From: Phytoactinopolyspora endophytica
GTDB lineage: Bacteria > Actinomycetota > Actinomycetes > Jiangellales > Jiangellaceae
Reading direction: 5' to 3'
NCBI RefSeq assembly: GCF_004138495.1
Contig: NZ_ML142864.1
Location: 95,916 to 116,970, forward strand
DNA: 21,055 nt
A program made the position numbers and the translations under genes. The notes beneath the pieces are model-generated. The model searched no databases and was not told where the DNA came from. It was given only the letters and a program-made list of their open reading frames with translations. Below, in pieces: positions 3,764-19,701 of the stretch (the stretch's first letter is position 1; each line of letters begins with the position of its first letter).

Positions 3764-4171
3764 TTATTTGGGGAGCAAAAGGTTGAGGACCCAACTGACA
3801 AACGAGACAACCAGGGCACCCAGCACGGCCGCCCAGAAGAAGTCGTTGACTTCGAACGGCACATCCAGCTGCTCTGCGATCCACCCGGTGAGCCACAGCA
3901 TCAAAGCGTTGACGATGAACGTGAACAGGCCCAGCGTCAGTATGAACAGCGGGAGGGTGAGTAGCTGGACGACCGGTTTGATGAACGCATTGACCAGCGC
4001 AAAGATCAGTGCGATCACCCCGAAGGTGAGGATCCGGTCACTGGTGGAGTCGTCCGACGTGATGTTGACGCCGCTGACGATCTCAGTGGCGACCCACAGT
4101 GCAAGGCCGTTGACGATGATGCGCACGATGAAGGAGAACACGTTCGAAGAGCGTATATCGTGCGTCAACAT
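3764..4171 (-). CDS. Phage-holin-4 family membrane protein
   Basis: Integral membrane protein of about 135 residues with four hydrophobic helices: [56 protein letters not shown] and [20 protein letters not shown]. The block [20 protein letters not shown] is the hallmark of the phage-holin superfamily-4 (YvlD-like) proteins, which are common on bacterial chromosomes, have no proven lytic role and probably affect the envelope. The frame runs on to a GTG at 4198; the ATG at 4171-4169 is taken. That ATG overlaps the hisC start codon on the other strand. No prophage genes are near, so this is a resident gene. Confidence 0.82.
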
Positions 4172-5309
4172 GACGCCATCGAGACGTACAGATGACACGA
4201 CATCGGGGTCGGGCGAGTTGGGAGTGCGGCTGCGCGGTGCGCTGGATGGGCTGCCGTCGTACCGGCCCGGGCGCTCCGCGAGTCCCCCGGCCTCGGGGCA
4301 CGCCGCAACGACGGTCTACAAGGTCTCCTCGAACGAGAACCCCTATCCGCCGCTGCCGGGCGTACGCGAGGCGGTGAACGATGCCGCCGCCTCGTTGAAC
4401 CGTTATCCCGACATGTTCGCCACGGGCCTGGTGGCGGCGTTGGCGGACCGGTTCGATGTCCCTCCCGAACACCTGGCTACCGGCACCGGCAGCGTCGGCG
4501 TGCTGCAGCAGATTATTCAGGCTTGTGCGGGAGAAGGGGACGAGGTCATCTACGCATGGAGGTCCTTTGAGGCCTATCCGATCGTGGTGGGCGTCTCCGG
4601 GGCGGCTTCTATCCGGGTGCCGTTGACCGCGGACGCCCGGCATGACCTCGACGCGATGGCCGCAGCGATCACCGATAGGACCAGGTTGATCTTGCTGTGT
4701 AGCCCGAACAACCCGACCGGGCCGGCCATCCGCCGTGCCGAGCTCGAGGCCTTCCTGGACCGCGTGCCGAGTGACGTGCTGGTGGTGGTGGACGAGGCGT
4801 ATCGGGAGTTCGTCCGTGACCCGGATGTCGTCGACGGCATCGACGTCTATCGCGGACGCCGGAATGTGTGTGTGCTGAGGACGTTCTCGAAGGCGTACGG
4901 GCTGGCCGGTCTTCGCGTGGGTTTCGCCATCGCACATGACGACGTGGCGGACGCGTTGCGGAAGACGGCGGTCCCGTTCGGCGTGTCCGGCGTGGCGCAG
5001 GCGGCGGCTGTCGAGTCGCTGAAACGGGAGGCGGAGCTGCGGGGGCGGGTCGCCGATCTGGTCGGCGAGCGCGAACGGGTGGTGACCGCGTTGAATGACC
5101 AAGGGTGGCGGGTTCCTGAAACCGAGGCGAACTTCGTATGGATGGAACTCGGCGACGCCACGGATGAGTTTGCCCAGAAATGTATGGAATTCGGACTTAT
5201 CGTACGTCCATTCACTGGTGAAGGATGCCGAGTGACTGTAGGTGAACGGGACGCGAACGAACTATTCCTGCGGATCTCCGCGGAGTGGATTACCAACCGT
5301 GAGGTATGA
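4170..5309 (+). CDS. hisC: Histidinol-phosphate aminotransferase
   Basis: PLP-dependent class I/II aminotransferase that converts imidazole-acetol phosphate and glutamate to histidinol phosphate in histidine synthesis; actinobacterial relatives may also act on aromatic keto acids (Pat). Visible landmarks: [15 protein letters not shown] near 51-65, [12 protein letters not shown] (104-114), CSPNNPTGP (177-185), DEAYREF with the PLP-binding Asp208, and the Schiff-base Lys241 in [15 protein letters not shown]. Length (379 residues) is normal. The frame is open far upstream, so the start is uncertain: ATG 4170 lacks a ribosome-binding site, while TTG 4218 and GTG 4224 would place [17 protein letters not shown] near the N-terminus as in many homologues. 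The gene stands alone, away from other his genes. Confidence 0.93.
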
Positions 5310-5334
5310 CATTCGACACAGCGTTGTCCCGCAG

Positions 5335-5352
5335 TGTGACTACACGGTCACA
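5335..5352. repeat. Inverted repeat TGTGAC-N6-GTCACA
   Basis: Perfect 6-bp arms around TACACG, 26 bases after the hisC stop. It resembles a CRP/FNR half-site pair but with two bases too many between TGTGA and TCACA (8 instead of 6). It could also form a weak hairpin after hisC. No gene starts next to it. Confidence 0.25.
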
Positions 5353-5385
5353 GTGCGTGAGGCCCACGCAAATGGTTGCAGGCGC

Positions 5386-5453
5386 AAAAAGAAGGCACGG
5401 ACGACGCCCGTGCGTTCGGGGGGCGAGACGCAGGACGCCGTCCGTGCGCCTTC
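5386..5453 (-). terminator. Intrinsic terminator of the mini-peptide gene
   Basis: Read on the minus strand, GAAGG-CG-CACGGACG (from 5453) pairs with CGTCCGTGCCTTC (ending 5391) as a 13-bp stem with a two-base bulge, and is followed directly by TTTTT (5390-5386). The loop is GC-rich and may fold further. The T-run lies only on the minus-strand side, so the terminator serves the transcript coming from 5592, which supports a real gene at 5464-5592. It begins 11 bases after that gene's stop. Confidence 0.8.
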
Positions 5454-5463
5454 GATGCTACTG

Positions 5464-5592
5464 CTAGCAGCACATCCCTGGCCAGTCGGGCTCTACAGGG
5501 GCGGCGGAAGCAGGCGCGGAAACGATAGCCGCACTCGCCGTCAGTGCCAGGGCAGCGAGCGAGACGGCCAGAACACGCCTGAGACGGGCCAC
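5464..5592 (-). CDS. Secreted mini-peptide, putative signalling peptide
   Basis: Short gene of 42 residues. The GTG at 5592-5590 is preceded by GGAGG (5606-5602) at nine bases. The product starts MARLRRVLAVSL, a basic n-region, followed by an Ala/Leu/Val-rich h-region and a probable signal-peptidase site after SAPASA. This would release a peptide of about 12 residues ending in PVEPDWPGMCC. It stops at TAG 5466-5464, and a strong terminator follows. No known family is recognised. It is divergent from the XRE-TPR regulator gene across 65 bp, the arrangement of RRNPP cell-cell signalling cassettes, in which the mature peptide re-enters cells and binds the TPR domain. The two terminal Cys could form a vicinal disulfide or be modified. 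Coding status rests on the ribosome-binding site, signal peptide and terminator; the function is inferred. Confidence 0.72.
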   Translation of the reverse strand: MARLRRVLAVSLAALALTASAAIVSAPASAAPVEPDWPGMCC

Positions 5593-5657
5593 TGCAATCA
5601 ACCTCCAGGGTCCACGAAGGACTAGCGAAAAATGACTACCTGTAGTGCAATAGTGTC
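5593..5657. promoter_or_regulatory. Divergent promoter region with palindrome ACTAC-CT-GTAGT
   Basis: 65 bp between the GTG of the mini-peptide gene and the ATG of the regulator gene. ACTAC (5635-5639) and GTAGT (5642-5646) are perfect inverted arms. TAGTG recurs directly at 5643-5647 and 5651-5655, so there are three similar half-sites within 21 bp. On the minus strand TTGCAC (5650-5645) could be a -35 element for the mini-peptide gene. The regulator ATG has no ribosome-binding site, so its mRNA may be leaderless and start within the half-sites. This fits autoregulation by the XRE-TPR protein. Confidence 0.5.
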
Positions 5658-7049
5658 ATGACAGAGGAGCCACAGGCAACACTTGACGAGGCGCCGGCCC
5701 CAACACCCGTCGGTCAACGTATCCGGACGCGCAGGTTGGAGCTGGGCCTCTCGCAAGCTGATATTGCAGAGGGAATGCTGTCGCCCAGCTATGTGTCGCT
5801 TGTCGAGAGTGGTCGTCGCCAGCCCGCCGCGTCGGCACTCCAGCACATCGCTGAGCGTCTCCGCATCGATGTCGAATACCTCCGCGACGGCGTCGATGCG
5901 TCAATCCGTACGCGTGCGCGTCTCGCTCTCGGCCGTGCGGAGAAGGCGCTCTACGACGGCCATGCCGAAGAGGCCTACAAGGACTTCACGATACTGGTCG
6001 GGGATCCGGGTCTTAATGACGAGCAGAGTCGCCGAGCGCGGCTCGGCCAGGCACACGCGCTGGAGCGAAAGGGTGAGCTCGAAGGCGCCATCGAGCTTCT
6101 GGGTGAGCTGGCCGAGGAGGCGCGGCAGAGTCCCGAGGTGCAGGCCTGGCTGGATGTGGCGCTGGCGATGTCCCGCTGCTACCAGAGCGCGGGCGACCTC
6201 GACATGGCGATCCAGATCGGCGAAGAGTCGATGCGTGCCGCCCAGGAGATAGGCCTGGAGCACACTGATGAATATGTCCGGCTCGGATGCACCGTGCTCA
6301 GCGCTTACCACGGCCGCGGGGACATCGTCCGGTCCCGCACGTTGGCAGCCGATCTGGTCCGCGCCGCCGATGAGATGGGCGCCCCGCATACCCGCGGAGC
6401 CGCGTACTGGAACGCGTCGGTCATCGCGGAGTCGAGGGGCGATCTCGCTCAGGCACTGAGTCTGGTCGACCGTGCGTTGGCCCTCTTCGGGGAGGGCGAC
6501 GACCGCCGGAACCTGGCACGGTTGCGGATGGCCTACGCCTGGCTGCTGCTTCAAGGTGACGAGCCGCGAGCGACCGATGCGCTTGATCTCCTGGACAGCG
6601 TGCGGGATGAGATCTCCGCGCATGGTGGCGTCGACGATATCCGGCACTTCGACAGCACACGTGCCGACGCATTGCTGGCGCTCGGACGCCTTGACGAAGC
6701 GCATCGGGCGGCCATGGCAGCGCTCGAAGACCTCGGCGACCAGCCCCGGATGGAGTCGGCTCGGGCTCGGCTGGTGCTCGCCCGGGTGTTGCGTGCCGAG
6801 GGCGATGTGGACCAGAGCGCGCGAGAGGGTGCTCTGGCGGCGTCGATGCTGGAAGCGATGGGCGCGTCTCGAAGGGCAGCAGCCGCCTGGCGGGAGCTCG
6901 GCGACCTTTACCGGGACCTCGGACGCACGGACGAGGCGCTGGAGGCATTCGACCGGGCGCTGCAGTCGATGCGGATCATGCACTCCGTCGGGGCTGGGGT
7001 CGTGTTGGATGCGCCGACGGAACGGCGAAGCGAGCTGGCGCTGTACTAG
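5658..7049 (+). CDS. XRE-family HTH regulator with TPR repeats
   Basis: Cytosolic transcription factor of 463 residues. The XRE-type helix-turn-helix lies at about 18-75 (VGQRIRTRRLELGLSQADIA, then SYVSLVESGRRQP and LQHIAERL). The rest is helical with repeated TPR-like pairs: ALGRAEKALYDGHAEEAYKD, ARLGQAHALERKGELEGAIE, ALAMSRCYQSAGDLDMAIQI, then ESRGDLAQALSLVDRAL, and the clearest AWRELGDLYRDLGRTDEALE near 416-436. N-terminal HTH plus C-terminal TPR is the build of RRNPP peptide receptors (Rap, NprR, PlcR, PrgX). Its divergent neighbour encodes a tiny exported peptide, which makes it a candidate receptor. TPR regulators of unknown ligand are common in actinobacteria, so peptide binding is an inference. 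The ATG is followed by a ~15-residue acidic/Pro-rich tail before the HTH. Confidence 0.9.
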   Translation: MTEEPQATLDEAPAPTPVGQRIRTRRLELGLSQADIAEGMLSPSYVSLVESGRRQPAASALQHIAERLRIDVEYLRDGVDASIRTRARLALGRAEKALYDGHAEEAYKDFTILVGDPGLNDEQSRRARLGQAHALERKGELEGAIELLGELAEEARQSPEVQAWLDVALAMSRCYQSAGDLDMAIQIGEESMRAAQEIGLEHTDEYVRLGCTVLSAYHGRGDIVRSRTLAADLVRAADEMGAPHTRGAAYWNASVIAESRGDLAQALSLVDRALALFGEGDDRRNLARLRMAYAWLLLQGDEPRATDALDLLDSVRDEISAHGGVDDIRHFDSTRADALLALGRLDEAHRAAMAALEDLGDQPRMESARARLVLARVLRAEGDVDQSAREGALAASMLEAMGASRRAAAAWRELGDLYRDLGRTDEALEAFDRALQSMRIMHSVGAGVVLDAPTERRSELALY

Positions 7050-7125
7050 CGCACCGCTGGCACGCCTTCGGGTGTCACGCCACGTGGAGGATTGCCTCCG
7101 GCGTCGGGTGTGACTACGGCGACGA

Positions 7126-7162
7126 GGGGCGGGAAGGACGATACGGTCCTCCCGCCCCTTTT
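7126..7162 (+). terminator. Intrinsic terminator after the XRE-TPR gene
   Basis: GGGGCGGGAAGGAC pairs with GTCCTCCCGCCCC (one A bulged), 13 bp around the loop GATACG, followed by TTTT. It closes the regulator transcript 77 bases after its stop and insulates it from the nrd promoter. Confidence 0.88.
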
Positions 7163-7231
7163 GCTGTGCTGAGACGTGTGGCTGCGGTGGCCCTGAGTGT
7201 CTAGGCGCGGTCAGACGCTCTGAGCGACACG

Positions 7232-7279
7232 CCACAACATATAGGTGACTTGCATCTCTGTAACTACAAGATAATGTGG
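7232..7279 (+). promoter_or_regulatory. nrdAB promoter with two NrdR-like boxes
   Basis: Two 16-bp elements, CCACAACATATAGGTG (7232-7247) and CTACAAGATAATGTGG (7264-7279), each match about 11 positions of the NrdR box consensus acaCwAtATaTwGtgt. Their starts are 32 bp apart, close to three helical turns, as is usual for NrdR sites. A -10 hexamer GATAAT (7270-7275) is embedded in the second box, and a -35-like GTGACT (7245-7250) overlaps the first. NrdR, the Zn-finger/ATP-cone repressor of ribonucleotide reductase genes, would thus block RNA polymerase directly. nrdR itself is not in the window. Confidence 0.65.
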
Positions 7280-7344
7280 TTCATGCAGCTGGTATCCCCG
7301 GTCCTCCAGGCCGGGGATGGAGGGCTGGATGCCGGACCGGACGC

Positions 7345-7546
7345 GGTAACCGGTACGCGAGCCCGAACAGGGAACCCGGTGTGAGTCCGGGACTGCCCCG
7401 CAGCGGTGAATGGGAACGACAGCCGTCATGAAGCACTGGGCTGGGTCGGAATGATCCGGACGCGCCTGGGAAGCGACGGCCAGTAGGTGGGCGCCACCGA
7501 TCCAGATGGCGTCCGCGCCCGTGAGTCCGAATACCTGCCGGTTGCC
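7345..7546 (+). ncRNA. Cobalamin (B12) riboswitch aptamer
   Basis: Cis-acting RNA in the nrdA leader. P1 is closed by GGTAACCGG (7345-7353) and CCGGTTGCC (7538-7546). The core shows the conserved order of the class: GAACAGGGAACCCGGTGTGA, GTCCGGGACTGCCCCGCAGC, GGTGAATGGGAACGACAG, then AAGCACTGGG, CTGGGAAGCGACGGCCAG and the 3' GTGAGTCCGAATACCTGCC. It should bind adenosylcobalamin and lower expression of the B12-independent reductase downstream, as described for Streptomyces nrdABS, where a B12-dependent class II enzyme then takes over. A hairpin ATCCCCGG/CCGGGGAT (7294-7318) lies between the presumed transcription start and the aptamer. Confidence 0.92.
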
Positions 7547-7727: not shown

Positions 7728-10310
7728 ATGAACATCACCGTCGCCAAGCGGGACGGGTCCGTGGAGCCCTACGACGGCTATAAGATCGCCCGCGCCATCG
7801 AAACGGCCAGTACAGGCCTGGACGACCAGGTAACTCGGGCAGCACAGCTCCAGTCCGAGCTGGAGATCACCTTGTTCGACGGCATATCCACCGAGCAGCT
7901 GGACGAAGCCGTCATCCAGGTGGCGTTGCAGAACGTCAAAGAGGACCCGGCGTACGACACGGTGGCCGCTCGACTGCTGCTCAAGACCATGTACAAGCGC
8001 GTCCTCGGGGGCTGCGAGAGGGCCGATGACCTCCTGCCGCTGCACCGCAGCCGATTCCCCACGTTCATCCGGCGGGCCGTCGCCGACGAGATGCTGGACG
8101 TGCGGCTCAGCACGGACTTCGACCTGGACCGGTTGGCCGCGGCGCTGGAGCCTGCCCGTGATGACCTGCTCCGTTACATCGGCTTGGTCACCATGCGCAA
8201 CAGATACATGGTCAGTGGGCCAGATGGCGACCAACGTGAGGTCCCGCAGTTCTTCTGGATGCGGACAGCGATGGGGCTGGCCTTGAATGAGCGCGACGCC
8301 ACGTCGTCCGCGATCGCCTTCTACGAGAAGATGTCCCGGCTGGAGTATCTGGCCGCGGGCTCGACGCTGGTCAACGCCGGCACGGCGTACTCGCAGCTGT
8401 CCAACTGCTTCGTCATGGAGATGGACGACGACATCGAGCACATCGCCAAGAGTGTGCGGGACGTGATGTGGCTGACCAAGGGGACCGGCGGTATCGGGCT
8501 CTCGGTGACGAAGCTTCGTGCCGAAAGCTCCCCGATCAGGAGCAACAACACCACCTCCACCGGTCCCATCCCGTTTATGCACACGATCGACTCGACCCTG
8601 CGAGCGGTGTCACGGGGCGGAAAGAAGTTCGGTGCGCTCTGTTTCTACATGGAGAACTGGCACCTGGACTTCCCCCAGTTCCTCGACCTCCGGCAGAACT
8701 CGGGAGACCCGTACCGTCGCACGCGCACCGCCAACACGGCGGTGTGGATCTCCGACGAGTTCATGAGGCGGGTGGCCGAGGACGACGACTGGTACCTGTT
8801 CGACCCGCTCGAGACGTCCGATCTGACCGAGCTGTACGGGGCGGACTTCTCTCGCAGATATGCCGAGTACGTGGCCTTGGCCGAGGCAGGCGAGCTACGT
8901 GCGTTCCGGAAGGTCAAAGCCAGAGAGCAGTTCAAGACGATCCTCATCTGCTTGCAGACCACTTCGCATCCTTGGCTGACGTGGAAGGACACGGTCAACA
9001 ATCGTGCGCTGAACAACAACACCGGCACGATCCACCTGTCGAATCTCTGCACCGAGATCTGCTTGCCGCAGGATAGGGACAACATCGCCGTCTGCAATCT
9101 GGCCTCGGTCAATCTGGCCCGTCACCTGGTCGAACCAGCGCGTGGCGAGCGGCCGGGACGTGAGCGGCCGGCCGACAAGATCGCGACGGGCATCGACTGG
9201 GGACGCCTGCGCGAGAGCGTCCGGCTGGCGGTGCGGCAGCTGGACAACCTCGTGGACATCACGATCTCCTCGGTGCCTGAGTCAGAGCGGTCGAACGATC
9301 TGAACCGTGCCGTCGGGCTCGGCGTGATGGGCTTCACGGAGGTGGTCGAGCGGCTCGGATGGTCGTACGAGAGTGAACAGGCGCACAGTCTGGTGGACGA
9401 GCTGATGGAGTTCATCAGCTGGCACGCTATCGACGCAAGCGCCGACCTGGCCCGCGAGCGCGGAGCGTACCCGAACTTCGACGGGTCGCGATGGAGCGCG
9501 GGCCTGGTGCCGATCGATACCCTCGACATTGCTGAAGAGCAGCGCGGCATCCCCGTGACGGTTCCCCGTACGGTACGCCTGGACTGGGACGCCTTGCGGG
9601 CGAAGGTTCGCGGGGGCATCCGTAACGCGACGCTGATGGCGATCGCGCCGACCGCGTCCATCGGGCTCATCGCCGGGACGACGCCGGGTCTGGACCCCCA
9701 GTTCTCCCAGATCTTCAGTCGGACCACGAGCTCGGGGAAGTTCCTCGAGGTGAACCGGAACCTGGTGGCCGATCTGAAGTCTCGTGGTCTGTGGACGGCG
9801 GTCCGTGAGGATCTGTTGCGCGTGCAGGGCGACCTGTTGAGGCTTCCATCCGTTCCGGACGAGGTGAAATCGGTATACAAGACGTCGTTCCAGCTTTCGC
9901 CGTATGCGTTCGTCGAGGTGGCGGCGCGCGCTCAGAAATGGGTCGACCAGGCCATCAGCCGGAACATGTATCTCGAGACGCGTGACGTGGACGACATGGT
10001 CGACATCTACTCGACGGCTTGGTCCAAGGGTGTCAAGACCACGTACTACCTGCACATGAAGCCACGGCACACCGCCGAGCAGAGCACCGTCCGGGTCAAC
10101 AAGGCGGCAGTGCCCACAGACGACGACGCCGAGAGGGTGCGGGCGAGCTCCGCCATGGCGACCGTGTCGTCCGGCACCACTGGCGAGCATGTCTCTGCGG
10201 TGGGCCGTCGCGGCTTCGGTTTCGCCCAGCTCCCCGCTGGCGTGCAGGGCGCTGATATCGCATGTCCCGTGGATCCGCAGGAACGCTTCGAGTGCGATTC
10301 CTGCCAATAG
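7728..10310 (+). CDS. nrdA: Ribonucleotide reductase class I, alpha subunit
   Basis: Catalytic subunit that reduces NDPs to dNDPs for DNA synthesis; 860 residues. The N-terminus is an ATP-cone (VAKRDGSVEPYDGYKIARAI), so activity should be ATP/dATP controlled. Active-site landmarks: Cys227 (SQLSNCF) and Cys456 (AVCNLASVNL) as the redox pair, Asn439/Cys441/Glu443 in SNLCTEI with Cys441 as thiyl radical, Tyr773-Tyr774 (KTTYYLH) in the radical path, and Cys856/Cys859 in the C-terminal ECDSCQ that takes electrons from thioredoxin or glutaredoxin. The ribosome-binding site GAGGAGAG is ideal. Near 471-484 there is a charged, Arg-rich loop (GERPGRERP). A cobalamin riboswitch and NrdR-like boxes lie upstream and nrdB follows. 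Confidence 0.97.
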   Translation: MNITVAKRDGSVEPYDGYKIARAIETASTGLDDQVTRAAQLQSELEITLFDGISTEQLDEAVIQVALQNVKEDPAYDTVAARLLLKTMYKRVLGGCERADDLLPLHRSRFPTFIRRAVADEMLDVRLSTDFDLDRLAAALEPARDDLLRYIGLVTMRNRYMVSGPDGDQREVPQFFWMRTAMGLALNERDATSSAIAFYEKMSRLEYLAAGSTLVNAGTAYSQLSNCFVMEMDDDIEHIAKSVRDVMWLTKGTGGIGLSVTKLRAESSPIRSNNTTSTGPIPFMHTIDSTLRAVSRGGKKFGALCFYMENWHLDFPQFLDLRQNSGDPYRRTRTANTAVWISDEFMRRVAEDDDWYLFDPLETSDLTELYGADFSRRYAEYVALAEAGELRAFRKVKAREQFKTILICLQTTSHPWLTWKDTVNNRALNNNTGTIHLSNLCTEICLPQDRDNIAVCNLASVNLARHLVEPARGERPGRERPADKIATGIDWGRLRESVRLAVRQLDNLVDITISSVPESERSNDLNRAVGLGVMGFTEVVERLGWSYESEQAHSLVDELMEFISWHAIDASADLARERGAYPNFDGSRWSAGLVPIDTLDIAEEQRGIPVTVPRTVRLDWDALRAKVRGGIRNATLMAIAPTASIGLIAGTTPGLDPQFSQIFSRTTSSGKFLEVNRNLVADLKSRGLWTAVREDLLRVQGDLLRLPSVPDEVKSVYKTSFQLSPYAFVEVAARAQKWVDQAISRNMYLETRDVDDMVDIYSTAWSKGVKTTYYLHMKPRHTAEQSTVRVNKAAVPTDDDAERVRASSAMATVSSGTTGEHVSAVGRRGFGFAQLPAGVQGADIACPVDPQERFECDSCQ

Positions 10311-10414: not shown

Positions 10415-11401
10415 ATGACGCAAACGATCTTGGGAACCGGCATCCAGGAAGGGCTGTTGCTCAAGCCGGTCCGCTACCCCTGGGCCTACGAGCTTTACAA
10501 CCAGGCGGTGGCCAATACCTGGTTTCCACACGAGGTGCAGCTGGGTGAGGACCTAGCAGACTTCAAGAAGATGTCCGACGAGGAACGGCACGCGCTGACC
10601 TTTCTCATGAGCTACTTCAATCCGAACGAGCTGCTGGTCAACAAGGCCCTCGCGTTCGGCGTCTATCCCTATGTCGGCGCGGCCGAGGCCCATCTTTACC
10701 TGGCCAAGCAGATGTGGGAGGAGGCGAACCACGTAATGGCCTTCGAGTACGTCCTGGAGACCTTCCCTATCGACCGGCGGCAGGCGTATGAGGCGCACGT
10801 CAACGTGCCGTCGATGGTGGCCAAGGAGAAGTTCGAGGTCCACTACATCCGGCGGATGACCGAGCAGACGCTGGACATCGGTACCACTGAGGGTAAGCGG
10901 GATTTCGTCCGCAACCTCGTCGCGTACAACATCGTCTTGGAAGGGATCTGGTTCTACAGCGGGTTCATGGTGGCGTTGAGTTTCCGGCAGCGGAATCTGC
11001 TGCGGAACTTCGCGTCGCTGGTCGACTGGGTCGTGCGAGATGAGAGCCTGCACCTGAAGTTCGGGATCAACCTGATCCTGACCGTGCTCGATGAGAACCC
11101 CGACCTGCGGACCGAGGAGTTCGCCGCCGAGATCAAGCAGATGATCGTCGACGGCGTGACGATGGAGGAGCAGTACAACCGGGACCTGCTGCCCCGCGGC
11201 GTCCTCGGGATGAACGCCGACTACATCAATCAGTACGTCAGGTACCTGGCCGACCGGCGGCTCGAGGAGCTGGGCTTCGCCCCGCATTACAACGTCACCA
11301 ACCCGGCGAAATGGATGGCAACAGCGAACGACACCCTCCAGTTGGTCAACTTCTTCGAGTCGACCAACACCAGCTATGAGGTGGATGCACGCGCGCGTTG
11401 A
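10415..11401 (+). CDS. nrdB: Ribonucleotide reductase beta subunit, class Ic type
   Basis: Radical-generating subunit, 328 residues, with a strong ribosome-binding site (AAGGAGGA). Metal ligands read by alignment from memory with E. coli and Chlamydia: Glu72 (NPNELL), Glu103 and His106 (EEANH), Glu176 (IVLEGIWFYSGF), Glu210 and His213 (RDESLHL). The residue four after His106, where class Ia enzymes carry the radical Tyr122, is Phe110, and the first ligand is Glu instead of Asp84. Both changes define class Ic as in Chlamydia trachomatis (Phe127, Glu89), which uses a Mn(IV)/Fe(III) cofactor and no tyrosyl radical. Further likeness includes LPRGVLG, LADRRLEELGF and the C-terminal radical-path Tyr321 in STNTSYE. 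A dimanganese class Id enzyme cannot be excluded. Confidence 0.95.
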   Translation: MTQTILGTGIQEGLLLKPVRYPWAYELYNQAVANTWFPHEVQLGEDLADFKKMSDEERHALTFLMSYFNPNELLVNKALAFGVYPYVGAAEAHLYLAKQMWEEANHVMAFEYVLETFPIDRRQAYEAHVNVPSMVAKEKFEVHYIRRMTEQTLDIGTTEGKRDFVRNLVAYNIVLEGIWFYSGFMVALSFRQRNLLRNFASLVDWVVRDESLHLKFGINLILTVLDENPDLRTEEFAAEIKQMIVDGVTMEEQYNRDLLPRGVLGMNADYINQYVRYLADRRLEELGFAPHYNVTNPAKWMATANDTLQLVNFFESTNTSYEVDARAR

Positions 11402-18303: not shown

Positions 18304-19701
18304 ATGCCAACCCCTGTCCGAAGAAGGGCCGCGCTATTGTCGGGTGGGCTCGCGGTGTCCATGATCGGGTTCACCGCCACGGCTGCCGTCGTTGTGGCCG
18401 ACGAGGACGAAGCGCTCGCGCCCGCTGAAGCGCGAACGAACGCCCAGCTGACCCCGGAAGCCAACATCCACGGCTTAAAGGTGCGACTCGACAACGCCCG
18501 GAGACCGTACGGGACGACGCTGTTCGGCCTGACAGCCGAGAGCGGGACGTCGCTGCAGGCGTACTGCGTCGAACTACATGTTCCAGTCAACTACGACCAT
18601 CCGGGCATGGAGGAGGTTCCCTGGGACCAGTATCCCGATCCCGACTCTCCGTTCCACGAGAACCGTGACCAGGTCAACTGGATCCTGCACCACTCTTACC
18701 CGGCTGTCGACGTCGAGGAGATCGAGGCAGTCGTCGACGTCTCGTTCCGGGACGGCTTGTCCGAAGACGAAGCCATCGCCGCCACGCAGGCCGCAGTGTG
18801 GCATTTCAGCGACGACGCCGACTTGGCTCGGACCAACCCGACTCCGGAAGATCCCCAGTCGGGCAACGACGTCCGTGCGCTCTACGAGTACCTGACCGGC
18901 GATGAGAACGTCGGGATCGGCGATGAGCCGGAGCCCGAGCTGGCGCTGGACCCCGCCTCACTGACTGGGGAGAGCGGCGCACAGATCGGTCCGTTCGAGG
19001 TCTCCACCAGTGCGGAGGCGGCTCAGCTGTCGTCGGACCTCCCCGAGGGCATCGAGCTGGTCGACGCTGACTCGCAGCTCCTTGGCGAGGAACTGGCCGA
19101 CGGAAGTGAGATCTACGTCGATGTGCCCGAGGACGCAGCGGGCGGCGAGGGCAGCTTTGGTCTGGAAGCGGAGGCCACACTGAGCCTGGGCCGGCTCTTC
19201 GTCGGCGATGAGTACAACAAGAGGACGAAGGACGAGTATCGGACTCAGTCGCTGATTCTGGCCAGCGCGGAGAAGACCAAGGTCGAGGTCGAGGGCCAGG
19301 TGGCGTGGGTCACGCCGGAGGAGCCCGAGGAGCCGGAGGAGCCGGAAGAGCCGGAGGAGCCGGAAGAGCCGGAGGAGCCGGAAGAGCCGGAGGAGCCGGA
19401 AGAGCCGGAGGAGCCGGAAGAGCCCGAGACCCCCGAGTCCACACAGTCGCCCACGCCGGAGCCGACCTCACCTCCCCAGGACGATGAGGACGACGACGAT
19501 GAGGACGACGACGAGACTCAGAGCCCTGAGCCGTCCGCACCGCCGGAGGACGAGGACGACGATGATGAGGACGAGGACCTGCCGGACACCGGTACGGACT
19601 CCACGATGCTCATCGGTGCCGGGCTCGTCGCCATGCTCGGTGGGGCAGCCGCCCTGGCCCTGCAGCGCCGCGGTCTGACGGTCGGCCGTAGCCAGAGCTG
19701 A
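18304..19701 (+). CDS. Thioester-domain, LPDTG-anchored surface protein
   Basis: Cell-wall protein of 465 residues. A signal peptide (RRRAALLSGGLAVSMIGFTA) precedes a thioester domain whose Cys88 (LQAYCVEL) and Gln162 (AATQAAVWHFS) are placed to form the internal Cys-Gln bond of TQXA/TED proteins, which lets Gram-positive adhesins bind amines on a target covalently. A second, probably beta-rich domain (about 225-335) follows, then a Glu-Glu-Pro repeat stalk (338-376), a Pro/Ser/Asp-rich acidic linker, the sortase motif LPDTG, a membrane helix (MLIGAGLVAMLGGAAALAL) and Arg residues. The ATG has AAGGA upstream. No sortase gene or pilin partner is within the window, so anchoring depends on a sortase encoded elsewhere. 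The host or surface target is unknown. Confidence 0.93.
   Translation: MPTPVRRRAALLSGGLAVSMIGFTATAAVVVADEDEALAPAEARTNAQLTPEANIHGLKVRLDNARRPYGTTLFGLTAESGTSLQAYCVELHVPVNYDHPGMEEVPWDQYPDPDSPFHENRDQVNWILHHSYPAVDVEEIEAVVDVSFRDGLSEDEAIAATQAAVWHFSDDADLARTNPTPEDPQSGNDVRALYEYLTGDENVGIGDEPEPELALDPASLTGESGAQIGPFEVSTSAEAAQLSSDLPEGIELVDADSQLLGEELADGSEIYVDVPEDAAGGEGSFGLEAEATLSLGRLFVGDEYNKRTKDEYRTQSLILASAEKTKVEVEGQVAWVTPEEPEEPEEPEEPEEPEEPEEPEEPEEPEEPEEPEEPETPESTQSPTPEPTSPPQDDEDDDDEDDDETQSPEPSAPPEDEDDDDEDEDLPDTGTDSTMLIGAGLVAMLGGAAALALQRRGLTVGRSQS
19318..19430 (+). repeat. In-frame tandem repeat coding for Glu-Glu-Pro
   Basis: About six copies of an 18-base unit (GAGGAGCCGGAAGAGCCG, with GAG/GAA alternating) in the stalk of the surface protein. 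The near-identical units make slippage and length variation between strains likely. The encoded EEP units give a stiff acidic spacer across the wall. Confidence 0.9.

Follow-up and report, generated by a model that had tools for sequence, protein, structure and literature searches.

A conserved Cys-Cys-ended mini-peptide gene beside a helix-turn-helix regulator: a candidate RRNPP-like signalling pair in Actinomycetota

What is the role of a 42-codon reading frame that lies back to back with the gene for a 463-residue regulator in the actinobacterium Phytoactinopolyspora endophytica? The two start codons are 65 bases apart within a stretch of 21,055 nucleotides (contig NZ_ML142864.1, positions 95,916 to 116,970; hereafter the window) of a 7.6-Mb genome, and an earlier note, made from the letters alone, had proposed an exported peptide and its receptor. 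We consider it probable, at roughly 0.78, that the locus is a propeptide-receptor pheromone pair working like the RRNPP quorum-sensing cassettes of Bacillota. The small gene is a genuine conserved gene, and in several actinobacterial families it is genetically linked to receptors of this type; the tail of its product varies and the Cys-Cys end stays fixed. Coordinates are collected in Table 1.

Read from its GTG as M, the small frame on the minus strand translates to MARLRRVLAVSLAALALTASAAIVSAPASAAPVEPDWPGMCC followed by a stop, so that the product ends in WPGMCC. A TTG nine nucleotides upstream would give a product of 45 residues, and the GTG lines up with the ATG or GTG starts of the orthologues. 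By eye and by hydropathy the N-terminus shows a basic start, a hydrophobic core and an A-S-A/A cleavage site. Both the GGAGG site and the intrinsic terminator on the gene's own strand, which the earlier note had pointed out, were borne out: the hairpin behind the gene has a folding energy of -48.8 kcal/mol (z -5.8; 0/200 shuffles equally good), and a terminator-like site lies at 5413-5395 (minus strand) with the tail CTTCTTTTTG. The peptide matched no family in Pfam or NCBIfam, and no match to a sigma-70-type promoter was found in 5300-7400.

Conservation within the order establishes the gene. At all 20 Jiangellales loci with complete flanks, the window's own included and some of them from the same species, an exported-looking frame of 40-43 residues stands divergent from the orthologous regulator of XRE type with tetratricopeptide repeats (TPRs) and ends in Cys-Cys-stop; the eight named orthologous loci have the same kind of frame in the same slot. 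A 21st regulator locus (G007, identical with L117) was dropped, as a contig end cuts its frame within the signal-peptide part, and one more Jiangellales genome, 81% complete, gave no regulator match. The ratio of non-synonymous to synonymous substitution (dN/dS), computed for 17 of the 20 genes in four groups (L006, L036 and L046 excluded), is 0.17-0.31 over the first 28 codons and 0.17-0.46 over the tail, and is below 1 in every group. The tails themselves differ (PGMCC, PVMCC, PTMCC, PGDFCC, PGEFCC, PGQYCC, PVDMCC, IGNTCC and others). The earlier note had named conserved WPGxCC tails as possible support; the terminal Cys-Cys proved common to all, while WPGxCC is restricted to most Phytoactinopolyspora loci. 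Four of the 20 loci (L035, L037, L039, L041) carry a second Cys-Cys peptide of the TPDGGSDFCC type, downstream of the receptor and convergent with it, which suggests two signals per receptor.

The association reaches well beyond the order. A search of 393 genomes of the class at E 1e-25 turned up regulators of this kind in 68, of which 21 are Jiangellales; among 396 genomes sampled across the phylum, searched at E 1e-20, 22 had one, and six of those 22 belong to the same class. We analysed 60 class loci, G007 among them, the others having identities of about 26-41%. Exported mini-frames ending in CC (30) or CCG (2) accompany 32 of the 59 distant loci: 21 lie upstream in divergent orientation, 10 lie downstream and are encoded on the opposite strand, one of these at a distance of 1.6 kb, and the last lies upstream on the regulator's own strand. 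The 27 loci without such a peptide comprise seven of a clade with Trp..Pro (W..P) tails, 13 Streptosporangiaceae paralogues, and L115, L116, L061, L075, L093, L099 and L107; an exported frame without CC is present at L115 and L116, and L061 offered just 306 upstream bases to scan. The frame is thus conserved beside the orthologous regulators, where its absence would have spoken against the earlier proposal, and stands beside many, not all, distant homologues.

Several controls set this association apart from chance. No CC mini-peptide was found at 19 loci (60,922 bases) of XRE proteins that match by the helix-turn-helix (HTH) domain alone; sequence away from the regulator, taken from the window and from eight loci 11.6-13.4 kb long, had none either. 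At a stricter setting, first-order Markov flanks yielded 0/1200 against 28/60 for the real loci, and among exported frames 28 of 63 end in CC within 500 bases of the regulator versus 1 of 37 further away. The 104 distinct CC peptides have lengths of 38-58 residues, in a scan that accepted frames of 28-110 residues only. In the phylum-wide set of 23 loci there was a single CC peptide (L133, tail APWPHCC), and several other loci had short hydrophobic frames alongside.

A profile of 18 peptides, searched against 5.8 billion proteins, retrieved 92 relatives, 91 with CC as their exact end and one with CCA; since the CC columns are part of the profile, we regard this result as supportive and not as unbiased. 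Named matches came from Nocardioides and Haloactinopolyspora with this first profile, and from Nonomuraea, Planomonospora, Streptosporangium and Sphaerimonospora with a second, names that identify our family f17 as Streptosporangiaceae. The earlier note's remark that the gene escapes normal gene callers by its size holds only in part, as several relatives are already in NCBI as 'hypothetical protein'. Altogether, nine family labels within the class include CC peptide/receptor pairs, with Jiangellales, Nocardioides relatives and Streptosporangiaceae as examples, and such a pair also occurs on a Streptomyces megaplasmid. On the latter (Streptomyces sp. ADI95-16, L239), a 71-residue 'hypothetical protein' at 4018-4233, exported-looking and ending in DIPLCC, lies downstream of a homologous receptor; a second Streptomyces plasmid locus (L240) and a phage fragment (L241) showed no CC peptide.

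Streptosporangiaceae provided a further test. From 139 receptor matches, 90 loci were scanned (the 30 best and 60 picked down the list), containing 95 matches, of which L216b and L219b are partial, and the divergent slot was read blind to tail type. Of the 77 divergent peptides obtained in this way, 58 were of CC type, 17 had another tail, mostly W..P, and two ended in CCYE; no exported frame was called for the remaining 18 matches. A relaxed scan gave a CC peptide for five of these 18, and two more share one downstream CCYE peptide. The 11 receptors left without a peptide are all 40-47% identical to the query receptor, a range in which seven others do carry a CC peptide. Typical W..P tails are GWNHPG and GWGWPG, with GWGHAD and AWTYAE (no Pro) and PLNNAE (no Trp) as exceptions. 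Some W..P propeptides hold their tail in tandem: P0130 has four copies of GWNGPD, P0103 three of WTHAD, and P0104 and P0113 two each of WTYPY; P0125 combines WTYPE and WTYAE and is the only repeat peptide with a known neighbour, the receptor L165. Two loci (L201, L207) have two tandem receptors each, every receptor with its own CC peptide.

Four receptor residues, T212, A248, N252 and N285, track the type of peptide, but the relation is confounded by descent. The comparison comprised 168 rows after identical receptor sequences had been merged; its CC label takes in four rows with a CCYE tail, L097 was scored as 'none' with its CC peptide 1.6 kb distant, L200b lies in tandem with a receptor that is paired with a CC peptide, and the seven W..P loci present in both the class set and the family set were counted once. 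N252 and N285, both on TPR A helices, are kept in most CC receptors. Residue 252 is Glu in seven receptors, every one with an HCC tail, a covariation of E252 with His at tail position -3 that we consider suggestive; in the pair L205/L210 the tail AFMCC goes with N252 and the tail AFHCC with E252. We had predicted that E252 receptors without an adjoining peptide would have an HCC peptide elsewhere in their genome, and this was found in none of three genomes. The strongest covariation joins Pro at tail position -5 with Glu at receptor position 366 (p 8.5e-7); it beat 100/100 permutations at a 75% cut and 98/100 at 60%, and we draw nothing from it since the permutations ignore descent.

These observations also bear on other explanations. 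That the peptide is an effector under the regulator's control and not its ligand, be it a bacteriocin, a precursor of a ribosomally synthesised and post-translationally modified peptide or a metal- or redox-active thiol peptide, seems to us unlikely. Such a peptide could chelate metal or form a disulfide through its exported Cys-Cys end, and at two Streptosporangiaceae loci (L076, L080) the next two genes are ones that, by eye, we take to be CopC- and CopD-like, with genes of similar length at many other loci of the family. That pair was, however, not seen among the neighbours inspected at two loci of the Nocardioides family (L074, L082) or among the genes mapped in eight Jiangellales loci, and no common modification gene was noticed among neighbours that were not systematically annotated. 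The short tails, variable except for CC, argue against an effector, and the tandem tail copies and tail-dependent receptor residues suit a ligand better. We judge it quite improbable that the TPRs sense some other ligand, be it a protein or a small molecule, while the peptide acts outside on a membrane receptor. The generic nature of the TPR fold and the sizeable share of related XRE-TPR regulators without a peptide neighbour would fit this, yet the linkage of the peptide to a cytoplasmic TPR protein holds across great distances and through several arrangements of the genes, residues of that protein track the tail type, and the few neighbours inspected showed no obvious membrane sensor. Finally, a leader or attenuator frame that is not secreted, for instance one sensing cysteine through its Cys codons, which the terminator does follow, is highly improbable for a stand-alone unit that has a strong terminator, converges with hisC in the window, lies downstream of and antisense to the receptor in 10 loci, keeps its signal-peptide features and encodes a protein under purifying selection.

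If the locus is a pheromone pair, the propeptide would leave the cell through Sec and lose its signal peptide, and the signal would consist of the last 5-12 or so residues, within APVEPDWPGMCC. An oligopeptide ATP-binding cassette (ABC) importer might return it to the cytoplasm; the genome holds 48 matches to SBP_bac_5, some of them fragmentary. The predicted binding site of the peptide is the concave TPR groove, with T212, A248, N252 and N285 among the nearby A-helix residues, and its binding would alter the contact between HTH and DNA, at least at the common divergent promoter; autoregulation of the divergent pair would be likely. The groove positions were deduced from the helix list of an AlphaFold2 model alone (pLDDT, the model's confidence score, 88.4), which by our count has nine A/B helix pairs. 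The Cys-Cys end may serve as an anchor that the receptor recognises; alternatively, it may undergo oxidation, metal binding or modification extracellularly.

The closest parallel is PlcR-PapR of the Bacillus cereus group, likewise a cytoplasmic HTH and TPR regulator with a small exported propeptide adjoining. For the receptor model, Foldseek's first PDB match is the complex of PlcR, PapR7 and DNA, with 18% identical residues in the structural alignment, but unrelated TPR proteins reach scores similar to that of PlcR or higher, the fold being generic. When PDB sequences were compared with the receptor profile, PlcR likewise scored best of the HTH regulators, and the sequence relatives of the HTH domain in the PDB include PlcR and ComR. 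Unlike PlcR-PapR, the system described here belongs to another phylum, has a longer TPR superhelix and ends its peptide in Cys-Cys. ComR of streptococci is an HTH-TPR receptor of an imported peptide, and the double-Trp motif of ComS tails forms a parallel to the fixed dipeptide here. The HTH of ComR matches that of our receptor by sequence; ComR-ComS, whose receptor and imported peptide are covered in the abstract of PMC5131902, differs in belonging to Bacillota and in its tail chemistry.

Rap proteins are not known to carry a DNA-binding HTH. Rap-Phr systems, including phage Rap, do use propeptides in which the mature pheromone occurs several times, identically or nearly so (PMC11343458), which some W..P propeptides resemble. 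A key asparagine anchors the peptide in the Rap TPR groove (PMC3601992), and N252 and N285 are candidate counterparts of that residue, RapF N227; the Phr tails given in the available portions of these two papers do not end in Cys-Cys, unlike the peptides here.

Five features have been listed for RRNPP pairs (PMC10075063, in the part available): a propeptide of 10-100 residues, Sec export, a receptor of 250-500 residues, TPRs and adjacent genes. The propeptide here has 42 residues and the receptor 463, Pfam reports the TPRs, and the genes adjoin divergently at the 20 complete Jiangellales loci; for Sec export, set in that list as a SignalP call, a basic start, a hydrophobic core and an AxA site are seen from hydropathy. 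We file the system as RRNPP-like because four of the five published features are found, and the layout that the earlier note had recognised gains support from conservation, tandem tail repeats, receptor residues that track the tail and a PlcR-like fold. Sequence and model thus point to an RRNPP-like design, with or without common descent, that has a fixed Cys-Cys end and belongs to a different phylum.

Gamma-butyrolactones, with their TetR-type receptors, are enzyme-made small molecules with no genetically encoded peptide, unlike the system here. Their signalling operates in Actinomycetota, as in Streptomyces, and in the portions consulted of PMC13220807 and PMC10075063 intracellular peptide quorum sensing is assigned to Bacillota and small molecules are typical of Actinomycetota. 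The main texts of two papers on RRNPPA evolution (PMC9765709, PMC12700828) contain no words in actinobact- or actinomyc-, and we found no description of a Cys-Cys-ended RRNPP-like pheromone in the open-access PubMed Central literature, preprints lying outside that search.

More broadly, we lean slightly towards the view that the pairs represent an old pheromone language of Actinomycetota, with hypervariable tails, an invariant and chemically active Cys-Cys (as thiol, disulfide, metal ligand or other modification) and dedicated XRE-TPR receptors, from which one Streptosporangiaceae clade would have switched to a mostly Trp..Pro code, with matching receptor changes and multi-copy propeptides. 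If true, this would supply signals that can be tested in a phylum where development and antibiotic production abound, and would suggest ligands for the oligopeptide importers found there; with more than 100 pairs of known tail and receptor, the code would be open to tests with short synthetic peptides.

Table 1. Positions in the window of the features of the divergent pair
Feature	Position	Strand	Basis or remark
Propeptide gene	5464..5592	-	42 codons + stop, GTG start; sequence, orthologues, dN/dS
Ribosome-binding site GGAGG	5602..5606	-	9 nt upstream of GTG
Predicted Sec signal peptide, residues 1-30, end A-S-A	5503..5592	-	hydropathy and AxA site
Predicted exported tail APVEPDWPGMCC	5467..5502	-	variable among relatives save last two residues; mature signal expected C-terminally
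Cys-Cys codons TGC TGC	5467..5472	-	invariant in orthologous slot; 20/20 Jiangellales
Intrinsic terminator of propeptide transcript	5385..5453	-	hairpin and U-tract
Candidate receptor/regulator, XRE-type HTH + TPR superhelix, 463 residues	5658..7049	+	Pfam HTH_3 and TPR families, above cut-off
HTH_3 DNA-binding domain, residues 22-75	5721..5882	+	Pfam
TPR superhelix, residues 81-437, predicted peptide groove	5898..6968	+	Pfam and AlphaFold2 model
CTGTAGTGCAATAG element in divergent gap, just ahead of regulator start	5640..5653	+	alike by eye across Jiangellales
T212, helix 204-220 (TPR4 A)	6291..6293	+	tracks peptide type
A248, helix 243-259 (TPR5 A)	6399..6401	+	tracks peptide type
N252, helix 243-259 (TPR5 A)	6411..6413	+	tracks peptide type
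N285, helix 283-297 (TPR6 A)	6510..6512	+	tracks peptide type

Neither route to a regulon led further. The gap element has a single genomic site at up to one mismatch, and CTGTAGTSCAATAS, the pattern used to look for targets, is present just once in the genome, at this divergent promoter (a reversed-pattern control occurs three times), so that no targets were inferred. Neighbouring genes were likewise set aside as targets, the left flank being constant and the right one variable: hisC is on the left in 8/8 Jiangellales loci (72-80% identity), and on the right nrdAB is found in five of them and a zinc/manganese-binding protein in three, with a transporter-like gene in between at the two Jiangella loci inspected.

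Other small frames adjoin distant relatives of the receptor. Among the Streptosporangiaceae paralogues without a CC peptide, four (L105, L108, L110, L113) have a conserved hydrophobic protein of 52 residues (MQVKK..) some 640-820 bases upstream on the same strand, and L100 has a related form of it. In other classes of the phylum, hydrophobic frames of 30-39 residues adjoin distant homologues (L118, L125, L132, L135, L140), with tails such as FPWGGT, NWPHVP and TWSDGH. In the large-genome family f19 (L115, L131, L137, L138 and L116, the last being the same as L124), a divergent exported frame of 37-68 residues adjoins the receptor homologue, has no Cys-Cys and frequently ends in Arg. A tie to the signal of the Streptomyces BldK importer was weighed and is not claimed, because Streptosporangiaceae hold more of the peptides than any other family and the divergent exported frames of f19 lack CC.

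Elsewhere in the window, a Cobalamin riboswitch at 7347-7544 (plus strand; 74.3 bits) precedes the two genes of a class I ribonucleotide reductase, nrdA (7728-10310) and nrdB (10415-11401), and a thioester-domain surface protein with a TQXA domain and an LPXTG-type anchor is encoded at 18304-19701 (plus strand).
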